A DNA stretch of 44,677 nucleotides, taken from an uncultured Chloroflexota bacterium. GTDB lineage: Bacteria > Chloroflexota > Limnocylindria > Limnocylindrales > Limnocylindraceae. A program made the translations under genes and the position numbers. Positions within the stretch are counted from its first letter, which is position 1, and every line of letters starts with the position of its first letter. This document shows, one piece after another, positions 9,116 through 31,241 of the stretch. Location: the NCBI GenBank assembly GCA_903864185.1, contig CAIPEX010000016.1, forward strand, positions 1 through 44,677. Direction: 5' to 3'. Below the pieces are notes generated by a model. The model did no database searches. It was not told the DNA's origin and worked only from the letters and a program-made list of their open reading frames with translations.

Positions 9116-10871
9116 GCGCGAGCAGAAGGTTCCAAAGCCCGGAGACTTCATCTCTGGCCGCTATGTGTTGCAAGAGCTGATCGGCGAAGGTTCATCTGCA
9201 CTCGTCTTTCGTGCAACAGATGAGGCGCTCGGTCGTGACGTTGCGGTAAAAGTCTTACGTGATGCATTTGCAACCTCCGAAGAGGCAACAGCACGTTTCC
9301 GCGCTGAAGGTCGTGCCGCTGCAGTAATTGCGCACCCAAACGTGGCAGCCGTGTTCGATGTAACGCCAGAGGGCGAGCCGCCAGCAATTGTCATGGAGTT
9401 CGTCGACGGCGAAGACCTCGCATCGATGGTGCGCCGAGTTGGCCCGCTCGTGCCACGCCGCGCCGCTGCGATCGCTGCACAGGTGGCACGTGGCCTTGCG
9501 GCCGCCCACGTCCGCGGGATCGTTCACCGCGACGTCTCGTCGCGCAACATCCTGATCTCACGCGAGGGGCGAGCGCAGATCGCAGATTTCGGCATTGCCC
9601 GCGTCCTGCATGACGCTGCTGCAACTGCGGCGAGCCAGGCGCACCAGGCGATTGAGGGGACCCCGGAATACATCGCGCCAGAGGTTGCGGCAGGGGGGCA
9701 GGCGGCAGCCGCCTCGGATGTCTATGGCCTCGGTGTTGTCCTCTACGAACTGCTTACAGGGTTGCGCCCAACACCCGCCGCCGCTGCGCCTAGCGCGCTG
9801 CGCCCCGACATTGGGAGAGAGCTCGACCAGATCGTTGCGAAGATGCTCTCGCCTCAACCGACAAGCAGGCCGACGAGCACCGGCGCCGCCGACGCCCTCG
9901 AGGCATTCGTTATTTCAGCGAATCGCACCTCCGTGGTGGCGCGTCCGGTCGGCCCCGCCGCAGGGGCGCCGCGAGCCCTCGCCGGAACACGCGTCTCGCG
10001 TATCGCTGGGCGTGCTGGATCAGGCGAGCCCGAGAGCGTTCTCGCCGACCATGAGCGCCAACAGGAGACGGACGACGACGAACCGCTCTCAACACGAGGG
10101 ATGCTCCTCACCGTTGGCGGGATGGCGCTCGTCGCACTCCTCCTTGTGGGGGGGATGATCCTTGCGCTGCGAGTGATCAACGCAGGGAGCAAGCCCGACA
10201 CCAATGTGAAGATCCCGCCGATCACCTCACTCACATTAAGTGAAGCAATTCCGATCATCGAGTCGGCCGGCCTAAAGATCGATGTTGTCGAACGCGTGAC
10301 ATCCGACACGCAGCCAGTCGACACGATCCTGTCGCAGTCGCCGCAAGCAGGAAATCTGGTGCCTACCGGAACGGTCATCGAGGTTCGCGTTGTGATCGGG
10401 AGTGGACTCTCGGTTGTTCCTGATACGCGCGGCATGAACAAGGTGGATGCGATTGCCGCACTCAGGGCTGCCGGGCTGCGCGTCGGCAGTATTTATTCTG
10501 TCTGGTCCATTGATGTGGCAATCGACCTTGTCGTGCAAGAAAACCCACGGCCGGGGCTACAGGTAGTTGGCGGAACCGCAGTGGATCTAACCATCTCACT
10601 TGGCCCAGAACCATCAATCACGCCGACGCCGAGCGGATCATCCTCACCTACGCTCGTGAGTGTGCCCGCTTTGCGATGCAGCACCGTCACCGCTGCGCAG
10701 GCAACACTCGTTGCGCTTGGGCTCAGCCTGGATACTGCATCACTCACGCTCGGTGGCGATCTGGTCATCGATACCTACACGCCGGGTGCGGGAGAGATGC
10801 TTGCGTCGGGCGGTACCGTGTCGATCCTCACCTGGTCCCCGAGCGGGACCCCGTTGAGCGGCTGCCCCTAG
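9108..10871 (+). CDS. Ser/Thr protein kinase with three PASTA repeats
   Basis: The 587-residue membrane kinase is of the PknB/PrkC type. The kinase domain (about 18-270) has the glycine loop GEGSSALVF, Lys48 in VAVKVL, the catalytic loop HRDVSSRN (Asp142), DFG at 160 and the GTPEYIAPE segment. A disordered linker leads to one transmembrane helix (about 333-357). Three PASTA units follow outside the cell, the last ending in a Pro/Ser-rich spacer and GCP. PASTA domains bind muropeptides, so the family couples cell-wall state to phosphorylation. The catalytic loop lacks the Lys of the usual HRDLKPxN and reads more like the HRDLAARN of tyrosine kinases. The gene overlaps galU by eight bases at its 5' end. 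Confidence 0.92.
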   Translation: MSEREQKVPKPGDFISGRYVLQELIGEGSSALVFRATDEALGRDVAVKVLRDAFATSEEATARFRAEGRAAAVIAHPNVAAVFDVTPEGEPPAIVMEFVDGEDLASMVRRVGPLVPRRAAAIAAQVARGLAAAHVRGIVHRDVSSRNILISREGRAQIADFGIARVLHDAAATAASQAHQAIEGTPEYIAPEVAAGGQAAAASDVYGLGVVLYELLTGLRPTPAAAAPSALRPDIGRELDQIVAKMLSPQPTSRPTSTGAADALEAFVISANRTSVVARPVGPAAGAPRALAGTRVSRIAGRAGSGEPESVLADHERQQETDDDEPLSTRGMLLTVGGMALVALLLVGGMILALRVINAGSKPDTNVKIPPITSLTLSEAIPIIESAGLKIDVVERVTSDTQPVDTILSQSPQAGNLVPTGTVIEVRVVIGSGLSVVPDTRGMNKVDAIAALRAAGLRVGSIYSVWSIDVAIDLVVQENPRPGLQVVGGTAVDLTISLGPEPSITPTPSGSSSPTLVSVPALRCSTVTAAQATLVALGLSLDTASLTLGGDLVIDTYTPGAGEMLASGGTVSILTWSPSGTPLSGCP

Positions 10872-27935: not shown

Positions 27936-28010
27936 TGGAGCCGATGGTGAGGATTGAACTCACGACCTGCTGTTTACGAAACAGCTGCTCTACCACTGAG
28001 CTACATCGGC
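27936..28010 (-). tRNA. tRNA-Thr (anticodon CGT)
   Basis: A complete cloverleaf is present on the minus strand: acceptor GCCGATG/CATCGGC, D stem GCTC/GAGC, anticodon stem GCTGT/ACAGC with loop TTCGTAA, and T stem GTGAG/CTCAC with loop TTCAATC. CCA is encoded (27936-27938); the body without it is 27939-28010. It reads the codon ACG. Confidence 0.97.
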
Positions 28011-28035
28011 GCCGGAGGAGGATTGTAGCGGAGCG
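27971..28035. repeat. 65-bp direct repeat, copy 1 (tRNA-Thr 5' half plus promoter)
   Basis: These 65 bases recur at 31108-31172 in the same orientation with only two differences (63/65 identical). The repeat covers the tRNA-Thr 5' half to the anticodon stem, the spacer and the TACAAT promoter. The two copies bracket the copper locus. Confidence 0.95.
28022..28027 (-). promoter_or_regulatory. Promoter -10 of tRNA-Thr
   Basis: Consensus-like TACAAT on the minus strand lies 11 bases before the first tRNA base, the same distance as for tRNA-Glu. Confidence 0.6.
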
Positions 28036-28088
28036 TCAAGTGTGCGCGCTTTGCCTGCGAGCCCAGACCCTCTGAGCGGTAAGGGCGC

Positions 28089-28103
28089 TACAATCGCGCA
28101 TAG
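28089..28103 (+). promoter_or_regulatory. Near-leaderless promoter (TACAAT, 9 nt to ATG)
   Basis: TACAAT (28089-28094) is followed by nine bases and the ATG at 28104. The flanking CGCTACAATC resembles the divergent tRNA-Thr promoter. Confidence 0.5.
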
Positions 28104-28676
28104 ATGCGTCACTTCAGAAGTCTCCCAGGGGTAATCTCTTGGTCCATCGTTGGCCTCCTCGTGGGACACCAACTTGCCTACGCGTTCGTCTTCCGCGACC
28201 CCCACGTCCTCGCGCATGCACTCGCAGACACAGGGCACACGTGGCTGGCCCTCCTCCCGATCCTCGGCGGGGTTGCGCTGGCGATCTCGCTGGTGCGGAC
28301 CATCAACACGCGTGACGAATCGTCATCGTTCCGTCATCGAGCGGCGGCACTCATCGTTGTTCAGTTAGTTGCCTATGTGGCGATCGAGATCGTCGAACGG
28401 CTTGCCCACGGAGCACTACCTTCCGATCTGCTCGCCGAGATCACGTCGCTACAAGGAGCGCTTCTCTTCTTCGTCGGATTGCTCCTGCAAGTGGCAACCG
28501 CGCTCGGCGTCGTCCTCCTCTCGCGCGGCATTGCCCGCGCAGCTCGATATCTCCTTCGAGCGGCGCGTCCGACTGAGAGCCATAGAACCGAGCGACTGCT
28601 CCCTGCGAGCGACCCGCGACGCATCGTACGTGCCCTGTCGCTGCAGCCAGTACGAGGGCCGCCGCTTCTCGCTTGA
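28104..28676 (+). CDS. Hypothetical four-helix membrane protein of the copper locus
   Basis: The 190-residue protein has about four hydrophobic helices (ISWSIVGLLVGHQLAYAFVF, WLALLPILGGVALAISLV, AALIVVQLVAYVAIEIVERL, LLFFVGLLLQVATALGVVLLS). Several His lie in the first outer loop (GHQLAYAF, DPHVLAHALADTGHTW), which might bind metal. A basic Arg-rich C-terminus follows. No family is recognised. It lies directly upstream of the YcnI-like and YcnJ-like genes on the same strand, 57 bp before the first, and a copper-related role is inferred from position only. Confidence 0.6.
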   Translation: MRHFRSLPGVISWSIVGLLVGHQLAYAFVFRDPHVLAHALADTGHTWLALLPILGGVALAISLVRTINTRDESSSFRHRAAALIVVQLVAYVAIEIVERLAHGALPSDLLAEITSLQGALLFFVGLLLQVATALGVVLLSRGIARAARYLLRAARPTESHRTERLLPASDPRRIVRALSLQPVRGPPLLA

Positions 28677-28733
28677 CCTGTTGCGCGTCGATCCATGTCG
28701 TCGGCGCTTATCACGTGAAGTAAGGAGAGAAAC

Positions 28734-29423
28734 ATGAATCAGACGATTGCTCGCCGTGCGGCGAGCGCTCTTGCCGTGCTCGCGCTGTTGCTCGTTTCGG
28801 CGATGCCAGTTGCGGCACATGCGACGTTCCCCGACGGCTCAGACATCCCGCAGGGCGGCGACGGTGCCGTGATCCATATCAGGATCCCGCACGGGTGCAA
28901 CGGCGCACCGACCGATGCGGTCTCGGTGCAGCTCCCCGATGGGGTCGTGAATGCCAAGCCAGAGGCGCTCGCGGGATGGAAGGTTGCGACTGAACGCGTT
29001 GCTTCGGCGCCCTACACCCTCTGGGGAACCACCTACACCGATCGAGTTGGCGTGGTGACCTGGAGCGGCGGATCGCTTCCGGCAGATCAATACCTTGATT
29101 TCGGGATCAGCGCCGTCTTCACGATGGAGCCAGGCGAGTACACGGTGCCGGTGACGCAGAAGTGCGGAGCAGACACCGTCGCCTGGATTGAGATCCCAGG
29201 GGCCGGCCAGACGGAGGATGATCTCGAGCACCCTGCTCCGACGATCACTGTCGTCGCCGCCGCTGGCGATGGAAGCATGGGTGGTGACATGAGTGGCAGT
29301 GGTGGTGCGTCAACCAGTTCGTCGACATCGACGGATCTGCTGGCCTACGTCGCCATCGTGGCCGCACTCGTCGCCCTCGGCGTAAGCGTCTCCTCGCGAC
29401 GAAGCAACGCCGCGAAGCGCTGA
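28734..29423 (+). CDS. ycnI: YcnI-like copper-binding protein (DUF1775)
   Basis: The 229-residue protein has a signal peptide ending PVAA, so the mature protein would begin HATFPDG, the N-terminal His used by YcnI proteins to bind copper(II). The DUF1775 domain continues with VIHIRIPHGCNGAPTDAVSVQLPDG, WTTYTDRVGVVTWSGG-like strands and FTVPV-type endings. A Met/Gly/Ser linker and a C-terminal transmembrane helix (LLAYVAIVAALVALGVSVSS) anchor it. In Bacillus subtilis ycnI is next to ycnJ, a copper importer repressed by YcnK; the same pairing is seen here. It has a strong SD (AAGGAG). No YcnK- or CsoR-like regulator is visible in the window. Confidence 0.88.
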   Translation: MNQTIARRAASALAVLALLLVSAMPVAAHATFPDGSDIPQGGDGAVIHIRIPHGCNGAPTDAVSVQLPDGVVNAKPEALAGWKVATERVASAPYTLWGTTYTDRVGVVTWSGGSLPADQYLDFGISAVFTMEPGEYTVPVTQKCGADTVAWIEIPGAGQTEDDLEHPAPTITVVAAAGDGSMGGDMSGSGGASTSSSTSTDLLAYVAIVAALVALGVSVSSRRSNAAKR

Positions 29424-29445
29424 GTCGGCAGCACACTCGAAATCG

Positions 29446-30969
29446 ATGACGGGCGGCCGTCGAGATCGACAGACGGTGAGGAGGCCTTTCGGCCTCCTCA
29501 CCGCGCTGCTCGCAGTTGCCTGTTGGTCGCTCTCGTTCGCCACACCCGTTCTCGCACACGCAGAGGTGATCGACACCAGCCCGGGTGACGGAACGGTGGT
29601 CACGGCCCCGCCCGCCGCATTTTCGATCACCTTCAACGAGGCGGTGGGCGTGGAAAGCGATAGCGTCAAGATCTACAACGCGGCTGGTCGCCAAGTCGAC
29701 TCCACTGCGGAATCTGTCGCCGGCACTACGTTGACGCAGCCGCTCGACCCGCTCCCGTCGGGGTGGTATCTCGCCACCTGGCGCGTGATCTCATCCGACG
29801 GACATGTGGTGGAGTCTGCGGCGTCATTTGGCGTCGGATCTGCGGATGAGGCGTCCAGAAAGGCGGTGCTCGCCCTCCGCAGCTCTGAAGCTCCTCTGTT
29901 TTGGGCAGTGCGATTTGCCGCCGATCTCTCGCTCCTCGTCGCAGTCGGCGCACTCTATGCCTGCGTTGCATTGCGCGCCAAGGGTCGCAATGTGAGGCGG
30001 TTCGCCATCGGCGCGGTCACCCTCGCTGCGTTCGCGTCGCTCCTCTGGGTGGCGATGCAGGTACTGCTCGGAGGGGCGGCATGGCTGACGACGGGGAACG
30101 CGCTTGGCGGCATCGCGCGGGTCCTGCTTCTGAGCGGAGCTTCAGTCGCCTCGAAGCGAATGCCTCGCGTCGCTGTTGGGCTTGCGCTCGCGGCACTTGC
30201 GACGCTCGCCGTTGGCGGCCACCCAGGTGCCGCTGCCACATCCTCTGCGCTCTTGGTTGTTCATCTCGTTTCGGCCGCACTCTGGATCGGCGCTGCTCCG
30301 GCACTCGTCGTTGCGTATTTGGATCGAACCGTGGATGACCCCTCGATGCTCGAGACGATCCTGCGGTTCTCGCGAAGCTCGGCCGTGGCGATTGCGTTCG
30401 TGTTCGGAGGCGGCATCGTGCTCGGGTGGCTCCTCACTGATGGACTTGCGGGCGGCCTCTCCGCGTATGTGTTGCTTCTGTGCGCGAAGTTGCTGCTGGC
30501 GGTCGCAGCACTTCTCGGTGGAGCGTTGATGCGGCGTCGGCTGCGCGCTGGGACCGCGAGCCGCACGTCGGCCGCCCGCCTCTTCGCGCTCGACACGGTT
30601 ACGGTCGTGGCGATCGCCGCGCTCTCGGCCGGCCTGACGCTCGGGTCGCCGCACGCGGGTCATGCGGGCCATTCTGGGCATTGCGTCGCCACGATCGAAG
30701 GTGCGACCGTCAGCATCACGTTGAGTCCCGGAACGATCGGCGCGAACCGCGTCCTCATCTCCGGCGTCGCGCAAGCGGAGCGCGTGCGCCTTGAAACCTC
30801 CTTTCGGCCAAAGAGCGAGCGACTTGTAGCGGAACTGGAGGCTTCATCGGGCGCGTGGCAAGGCGGAACTGTATTCCCTGTCGCAGGCACGTGGGAGGCA
30901 ACGCTTGTGGTCGGGAAAGATCAGTTCACCGAAGTGCGCGGCTCTTGCACGCTGGAGATCGCCCCGTAG
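29446..30969 (+). CDS. ycnJ: YcnJ-like copper transport protein (CopC-CopD fusion)
   Basis: The protein of about 507 residues has a signal peptide ending VLAHA and a CopC domain (AEVIDTSPGDGTVVTAPPAAFSITF to SSDGHVVESAASFGV) with copper-site His in HAEV and DGH. A CopD membrane domain of about eight helices and a C-terminal YtkA-like extracytoplasmic domain (SGVAQAERVRLETSF, FPVAGTWEATLVV) follow. A His-rich loop (SPHAGHAGHSGHC) precedes the last domain. The architecture matches B. subtilis YcnJ, which imports copper. The start may be the ATG at 29446 or the GTG at 29476; neither has an SD. A perfect 12-bp hairpin sits exactly on the GTG and may limit expression. Confidence 0.87.
   Translation: MTGGRRDRQTVRRPFGLLTALLAVACWSLSFATPVLAHAEVIDTSPGDGTVVTAPPAAFSITFNEAVGVESDSVKIYNAAGRQVDSTAESVAGTTLTQPLDPLPSGWYLATWRVISSDGHVVESAASFGVGSADEASRKAVLALRSSEAPLFWAVRFAADLSLLVAVGALYACVALRAKGRNVRRFAIGAVTLAAFASLLWVAMQVLLGGAAWLTTGNALGGIARVLLLSGASVASKRMPRVAVGLALAALATLAVGGHPGAAATSSALLVVHLVSAALWIGAAPALVVAYLDRTVDDPSMLETILRFSRSSAVAIAFVFGGGIVLGWLLTDGLAGGLSAYVLLLCAKLLLAVAALLGGALMRRRLRAGTASRTSAARLFALDTVTVVAIAALSAGLTLGSPHAGHAGHSGHCVATIEGATVSITLSPGTIGANRVLISGVAQAERVRLETSFRPKSERLVAELEASSGAWQGGTVFPVAGTWEATLVVGKDQFTEVRGSCTLEIAP
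29475..29502 (+). promoter_or_regulatory. Perfect 12-bp stem-loop at the start of the YcnJ-like gene
   Basis: GGTGAGGAGGCC (29475-29486) pairs with GGCCTCCTCACC (29491-29502) around a TTTC loop. There is no T-run. The hairpin encloses the alternative GTG start (29476) and lies 51 bp after the YcnI stop, so it could attenuate transcription or block initiation. Confidence 0.6.
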
Positions 30970-31002
30970 TGACTCAACGAGCGACGCACACTGCCATCAA
31001 AG

Positions 31003-31051
31003 TTTCTACCCTCGTCTCGTTGGGCTAAATGTTGGGTACGTTGGGTAGAAA
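31003..31051. repeat. GTTGGG repeats inside a 9-bp inverted repeat
   Basis: TTTCTACCC (31003-31011) is the exact complement of GGGTAGAAA (31043-31051). Between and into them run three direct copies of GTTGGG(C)TA starting at 31019, 31031 and 31040. This lies in the 272-bp gap after the YcnJ-like gene, beside the broken tRNA-Thr copy, and resembles recombinase arm sites. No integrase gene is present. Confidence 0.5.
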
Positions 31052-31061
31052 TAGGTCCCGA

Positions 31062-31147
31062 ACCTGCTGTTTCTGTGCTCAAAACGGCCCCGTAACCCGC
31101 TTGCCGATGTTTACGAAACAGCTGCTCTACCACTGAGCTACATCGGC
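31062..31147 (-). pseudogene. Broken second copy of tRNA-Thr (CGT)
   Basis: On the minus strand the tRNA-Thr sequence runs unchanged from its first base (31147) through the anticodon loop to TAAACA. The cloverleaf then breaks. Foreign bases follow, and 11 bases of the 3' half (AAACAGCAGGT, 31062-31072) reappear about 35 bases later. Directly at the break, CATCGGC (31103-31109) restores a perfect seven-pair acceptor stem, so a 45-base tRNA-like RNA without T arm could form. The promoter is intact. It cannot make a normal tRNA. Confidence 0.75.
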
Positions 31148-31172
31148 GTCGGAGGGGGATTGTAGCGGAGCG
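31108..31172. repeat. 65-bp direct repeat, copy 2
   Basis: 63 of 65 bases are identical to 27971-28035. It includes the TACAAT box (31159-31164) at the same 11-base distance from the tRNA start. The repeats bracket 3.07 kb. Confidence 0.95.
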
Positions 31173-31241
31173 GGCCGCTGGGGCGGAACCTCGGTAGGAT
31201 GCGCAGGCCCTCCAAATGGAGGCCCAACAGGGGGAGAAGTC

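Follow-up and report, generated by a model that had tools for sequence, protein, structure and literature searches.

The window analysed here is a 44,677-nucleotide stretch of DNA (contig CAIPEX010000016.1 of assembly GCA_903864185.1) from a genome of the genus 'Candidatus Aquidulcis', which NCBI taxonomy places within 'Ca. Limnocylindria', Chloroflexota. In it, a complete gene for tRNA-Thr(CGT) and a displaced copy of the 5' half of the same gene enclose a small group of genes with a copper protein among them. We consider it very likely that this 3,137-bp segment is a non-autonomous gene cassette, integrated site-specifically and moved via the anticodon loop of the tRNA. The displaced half breaks at the same base as its counterparts in other genomes, the cassettes behind such halves share a conserved end joined to unrelated cargo, and the cassette of the window recurs, nearly identical and with its own promoter variant, in a second species.

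The window genome (G000) is a bin of 1.12 Mb, 92% complete, in 72 contigs. We searched 19 genomes of the genus, and 126 genomes of the order with the arm sequence of a sister family, whose genomes are of ~3 Mb. Three of the genus genomes recur below: G001, which matches 'Candidatus Aquidulcis frankliniae' (RFPZ01000049), G010, which matches an uncultured Chloroflexi bin (CAIJIA010000155), and G012, which matches UBA10416 (DMUR01000070).

Results

The repeat and the rebuilt tRNA

A repeat search of the window recovered the direct repeat that a first-pass annotation had described, 65 nt at 27971-28035 and 31108-31172, 63/65 identical (97%) and 3,137 bp apart from start to start. Its length by itself rules out chance as its origin, as does the recurrence of the arrangement in other genomes. 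On the minus strand, 27936-28010 is a complete tRNA-Thr(CGT) (ARAGORN; Rfam 73.1 bits), and the repeat takes in nt 1-37 of the tRNA, which reach to the end of the anticodon loop, together with 25 bp on the upstream side of the gene and 3 nt, ACA, which are absent after nt 37 from some related ends. The annotation was right that duplication of a 5' half with its promoter reverses the usual att polarity; its conclusion that this is not a standard att duplication stands for the polarity and falls for the type, which is still that of an att duplication, with a crossover placed in the anticodon loop.

All the tRNA-derived features lie on the minus strand. From the comparison with G010, we read 27936-27973 as a host-derived tRNA 3' half and 27974-28010 as a cassette-derived 5' half, together forming the rebuilt target. 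The 25-bp putative promoter segment duplicated with the 5' half (28011-28035) has a -10 box, TACAAT, at 28022-28027 and a CCTCC variant common only to G010. At the far end of the cassette, the displaced 5' half (nt 1-37 plus 3 matching nt, 31108-31147) is read as the original half of the host, and next to it lies the displaced promoter segment (31148-31172), with TACAAT at 31159-31164. A scan of the region for sigma-70 and terminator consensus sequences gave no match above chance.

A common break point

Partial 5'-half copies of this gene number 20 (19 distinct, the cassette of the window and that of G010 being the same) in 15 genomes of two families. All 20 part from the tRNA sequence where the anticodon loop ends on its 3' side (TTTCGTAA), at nt 37 in the count of this gene or position 38 in standard numbering; in the copy on G103:C5 the last loop base is also altered. 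Tyrosine recombinases that target tRNA genes use a 7-bp overlap flanked by an inverted repeat, which is the anticodon stem (PMC8371274). The common break point matches this classic 7-bp crossover, from which we infer crossover regions of sequence TTCGTAA at 27974-27980, on the tRNA side, and at 31111-31117, at the distal junction.

A conserved end on unrelated cargo

Partial copies stand upstream of the complete tRNA in four of the genus genomes: the window, G010, G012 and G001. The copper cassette of the window is carried by G010; in G012 the partial copy lies 0.96 kb from the complete tRNA and the cargo is a 201-aa protein; G001 has two partial copies, at distances of 1.6 and 4.6 kb, and its cargo is an unknown protein of 284 aa followed by a hypothetical protein, a YHYH protein and an af470 monooxygenase. 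The four distinct cassettes share an arm that reads TTTCGTAA-N34-[AG]CA[AG]A[AT]ACAGCAG-N15/16-[TG]ACCCAACG[TC]ACCCAACA, then GCCCAACG, and the likeness ends ~100 bp into the cassette, where unrelated cargo begins. In the window this attP-like end occupies 31018-31110 on the minus strand and comprises N34, ACAGAAACAGCAG (31064-31076) and the direct repeats TACCCAACGTACCCAACA and GCCCAACG; it is common to both ends in G001 and to those in G012 and G010. The window has a single occurrence of a 22-nt piece of this motif, and 100 shuffles have none. The NCCCAAC direct repeats look like arm-type integrase sites and may, judging by their sequence, serve as such. Across 84,980 species genomes, the arm pattern found the three known Aquidulcis contigs and two Bacteroidota matches (L103, L104), which we take as chance.

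Eleven genomes of the sister family (11 in all) have 5'-half copies that break at this base, and most of the cassettes there have a second arm (...TGCGCAGTG...ACAAACGGGCACACTTATCAGCTATTCG), again on unrelated cargo; a search with this arm matched 14 of the 126 genomes of the order. Both boundaries are present for the cassettes on G111:C139 (2.9 kb), G052:C15 (1.9 kb, with a Fic protein) and G036:C50 (2.0 kb, with a PALP enzyme and a small protein), and two partial copies stand in a row in G028 and in G053.

Neither arm type was found in IMG/VR. A single match to an 18-mer alone was about what chance would give for a collection of that size and lay in an unrelated context, and matches in phage records were limited to the tRNA part; a viral origin was rejected on these grounds.

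On G111:C87 (L142 ~10000-10070), a sister-family arm preceded by GTTTCGTAA stands beside chemotaxis and ABC-transporter genes with no tRNA to its left, possibly a secondary-site insertion or a leftover end. Remnants of the 3' half of the same tRNA-Thr are present in the sister family on G036:C50 (L112 18771-18815) and G030:C39 (L116 2982-3017); the G036 remnant starts at TTCGTAA, and elements of ordinary polarity, too, seem to make use of this anticodon loop. On G034:C14 (L111 6914-8350), a 5' part that resembles tRNA-Thr and includes the entire anticodon stem is followed by a 401-aa integrase and then by a tRNA-Thr(CGT) on the opposite strand; this is a different element at a related site.

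Mobility between genomes

From 27936 to 31148 (3.2 kb, covering tRNA and cassette), the window and G010 show 3 differences, whereas their terC flanks are only ~73% identical, and the step coincides exactly with the 3' end of the tRNA. Of all genomes examined, only these two have the CCTCC promoter variant, in their complete tRNA copies, whereas their outer partial copies differ. The 5' half and promoter of the complete tRNA therefore appear to have arrived with the cassette and to have displaced those of the host, as expected of an element that supplies a tRNA 5' half together with its upstream signal.

In G006 and G011, the complete tRNA directly adjoins the tetR flank, which in G012 begins at the partial copy; by sequence comparison, we read this as the pre-insertion arrangement of the G012 site. 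Genes just upstream of the tRNA vary across the genus (tetR, a membrane protein with a helix-turn-helix gene, nhaA, rhodanese, DUF305). The copper cassette with the Aquidulcis arm is confined to the window and G010 among the 19 genomes; in G001 and G012 that end belongs to other cassettes. This variable occupancy bears out the earlier suggestion of a mobile segment: close relatives compared at tRNA-Thr do not all have the same genes and both repeats, and several have different genes at that place.

G012 and G016 also share a stretch of 465 bp at 99.8% identity (L022 1633-2097 / L033 2-466). It runs from the 5' half of the tRNA to an abrupt end inside tetR, beyond which identity is ~79%, and it looks like a short recent exchange between two species. 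The 3' side of the tRNA is variable as well: several genomes have genes between terC and the tRNA 3' end (L024 5970-7153; L027/L028/L029/L031), among them putative glycosyltransferase-like genes by our own reading.

The partial copy is a fragment

The partial copy of the window runs on into ACATCGGC, which could form a stem with the 5' strand of the acceptor (GCCGATGT). The copy has a full-length but weak match to the Rfam tRNA model, 27.3 bits and thus below the gathering score of 29. Both features would suit a functional small RNA in the form of a truncated tRNA. However, the three other distinct Aquidulcis ends, which have GACACAGC, TCACCAGC and ACACCGGC at that place, lack the pairing, show no like fold and fold no better than shuffles, and the outer copies of G001 have a decayed promoter. 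Since the pairing is not conserved, we take the partial copy to be a fragment; an internally deleted or truncated functional tRNA was rejected, and a small RNA of this kind is very improbable.

Cargo and recombinases

The enclosed genes are those named in the first-pass annotation, a membrane protein, ycnI and ycnJ, with Pfam support for DUF1775 and CopC. All lie on the plus strand: a 190-aa membrane protein with no Pfam match and with its own TACAAT-like box just upstream (28104-28676; box at 28089-28094), a YcnI-type DUF1775 protein (28734-29423; PF07987, E 1.7e-29) and a YcnJ-like CopC-CopD copper protein (29446-30969; PF04234 (CopC), E 2.8e-19; PF05425 (CopD), 6.3e-5, below the cut-off). 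No recombinase was found among the genes of the window cassette, by open reading frames and Pfam.

Six cassette-bearing genomes (G000, G010, G012, G028, G036 and G022) have two PF00589 proteins each, all with the XerC/D motif, and the best NCBIfam matches of the four from G000 and G028 are XerC, XerD and a related tyrosine-recombinase model. No integron integrase was found; the two PF00589 proteins of the window genome score 142 and 126 bits, well short of the integron-integrase cut-off of 265.

One larger island, in G031, has the same 5'-half duplication, with 22 kb between the complete and the partial tRNA (G031:C5 195849-197153, 217871-217917; L107 2850-4154, L108 9372-9418). It encodes a tyrosine integrase of 416 aa (Pfam 1.1e-11; PHROG integrase, PHROG 1, 5e-54), which is of the bacterial phage type, non-Xer, and not of the archaeal, suicidal pTN3 type, and the last codons of which (ADIAQR-stop) lie within the tRNA-Thr 5' half. 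Other cargo includes UvrD and SNF2-type helicases and a GmrSD-type nuclease domain. There is no promoter-like box ahead of the rebuilt tRNA of G031, so it may be transcribed together with the integrase gene. Relatives of this integrase were absent from the 19 Aquidulcis genomes at E 1e-10; those in the sister family are ~30% identical, and most of the ones checked lie near tRNAs other than tRNA-Thr(CGT). Non-Xer integrases of the genus (G002:C80, G014:C77, G001:C68, G001:C119) have no 5'-half copy or arm on the surrounding stretches examined.

Discussion

A proposed cassette that rebuilds its target

We suggest that a tyrosine recombinase supplied in trans would join a circular cassette to the chromosome by crossover in the 7-bp TTCGTAA of tRNA-Thr(CGT), in which the core-type inverted repeat would be the anticodon stem and the arm-type sites would be the TACCCAAC repeats. 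With the cassette would come tRNA nt 1-37 and, in Aquidulcis, a promoter of ~25 bp, so that integration would rebuild a complete tRNA from the host 3' half and the cassette 5' half. The rebuilt tRNA would then be driven by the cassette-borne promoter segment, and the former 5' half and promoter would be pushed outward as a remnant. The predicted circle has the arm at 31018-31110 joined across TTTACGAA to 28011-28100, and in the predicted empty site the tRNA 3' half (27936-27973) would directly adjoin the outer 5' half with its promoter (31111-31240). Because the whole target would be rebuilt at the same spot each time, cassettes could stack, with the newest beside the tRNA 3' half. Such an order fits the outward decay of the -10 box in the one array of G001, where TACAAT in the complete copy becomes TACGAT in the nearer partial copy and is lost in the outer one.

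Several points weigh against this reading. None of the 1-7 kb cassettes has a recombinase gene among its genes, and six cassette-bearing genomes have only two Xer-type recombinases each. The comparison of G006 and G011 with G012 crosses species (~75% flank identity), every genome compared is an incomplete bin, and a chimeric join at the tRNA is conceivable for the G010 contig, although our conclusions do not rest on G010 alone.

Exchange by homologous recombination would account for the absence of an integrase: the cassettes would spread as ordinary DNA, by uptake or transduction, and be swapped by crossovers in the tRNA and its flanks, the end motif being a fossil of an older integrase-driven element. 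The 465-bp tract of G012 and G016 is what short-tract exchange would give. However, the same end and break point in at least four independent cassettes of the genus and ~14 of the sister family are left unexplained, as is the stacking of 5' halves, and we give this explanation only a small share of the probability.

Given the lack of a recombinase in the cassettes, that of the window is most likely moved by an enzyme in trans, which would come from a helper element or, less likely, be the host XerC/XerD pair. The host pair would be a resident system in need of no helper, mobile elements that use Xer do exist, and XerC/D-like proteins make up the whole PF00589 complement of the six genomes above. 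Known Xer elements, however, rely on dif-like sites. The site seen here, an anticodon loop, is one typical of phage-type integrases (PMC8371274); moreover, the related G031 element has its own non-Xer integrase, and the bins are incomplete. We therefore regard the Xer pair as an improbable source of the activity. Unequal exchange can leave direct repeats around a segment, but the idea that the tRNA region was duplicated by chance or in simple tandem fashion, with genes merely caught between, is refuted by the same break point and conserved arm in unrelated cassettes and by the sharp identity step against G010, and hardly deserves further consideration.

With site-specific integration as the preferred reading, a broader and distinctly tentative proposal is integron-like stacking across the order, in which recombinase-less cassettes might be inserted at the anticodon loop by a resident or transient enzyme, each re-supplying the 5' half (and, in Aquidulcis, the promoter). 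In these streamlined freshwater Chloroflexota, the tRNA would then offer a landing site that is regenerated every time. The streamlined bacteria abundant in lakes are commonly regarded as poor in mobile elements, and yet adaptive genes, those for metal handling for instance, pass between them. With a 5' half and promoter duplicated, the polarity runs counter to the usual layout of tRNA islands, so that such cassettes are easily missed. Their ends are readable, however, as an arm of 85-100 bp and a tRNA half (e.g. CTGTTTCGTAA, then the arm), which lets cassettes, cargo and order be listed from existing metagenomes. They also raise the question of which enzyme moves cassettes that encode none.

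Comparison with known systems

Like elements that target tRNA genes at the anticodon loop, the window cassette has a repeat overlapping a rebuilt tRNA, a break point in the loop and presence in some genomes with absence from others; it differs in having no integrase of its own. Archaeal pTN3-like elements are known to integrate into the 5' half, with the tRNA then expressed from the side of the element (PMC8371274), and bacteria are said to use the 5' half "seldomly" (Williams 2002, as cited in PMC8371274). The cassettes resemble pTN3-like elements in their 5'-half att site and in a rebuilt tRNA that is predicted to be transcribed from the element side, and the integrase gene of G031 runs into the tRNA as that of pTN3 does. 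In contrast to pTN3-like elements, the window cassette is ~3 kb long and without an integrase, a 25-bp promoter segment takes the place of the integrase promoter, and it belongs to a stackable set with a common arm. We found no report of such cassettes in Limnocylindria in the openly readable literature; 5'-half integration is already known but rare, and integrase-less, stackable cassettes of this polarity appear to be new.

Integrons are alike in their recombinase-less cassettes, their single fixed insertion point and the last-in-first order that we infer for our arrays. They differ in that we found no integron integrase here, insertion targets a tRNA and rebuilds it each time, and cassettes may hold several genes with their own promoters. 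The ends of the present cassettes consist of tRNA halves plus a direct-repeat arm. Tycheposons, known from Prochlorococcus and with Methylophilaceae cases in PMC10872708, are described as elements of 4-200 kb with a tyrosine recombinase; they are likewise cargo-carrying integrative elements at tRNA genes in streamlined plankton, whereas the window element is 3.1 kb and has no tyrosine recombinase.

Additive islands of small cassettes at tRNA repeats have been described in 'Ca. Actinomarinales' (PMC7771536) and as fGI-2 of 'Ca. Methylopumilus' (PMC10872708), and these additive flexible genomic islands of streamlined aquatic bacteria likewise have metal and transport cargo. The Methylopumilus repeat, given in Figure 4F of PMC10872708 as the last 20 bp of tRNA-Lys (ACCAGCTGAGCTAATCCCCC), is in our own reading the reverse complement of a canonical tRNA 5' end, and those islands may therefore also use the 5' side. 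The cassettes described here bring together features of pTN3-like elements and of additive islands: they are small, stackable and integrase-less, with a defined arm and with replacement of the 5' half and, in Aquidulcis, of the promoter as well. Whereas the descriptions in PMC7771536 and PMC10872708, as we read them, define no arm sequence, crossover base or replacement of the 5' half and promoter, in the Limnocylindrales cassettes the arm, the crossover base and the 5'-half replacement can be resolved, and they recur in two families of another phylum.

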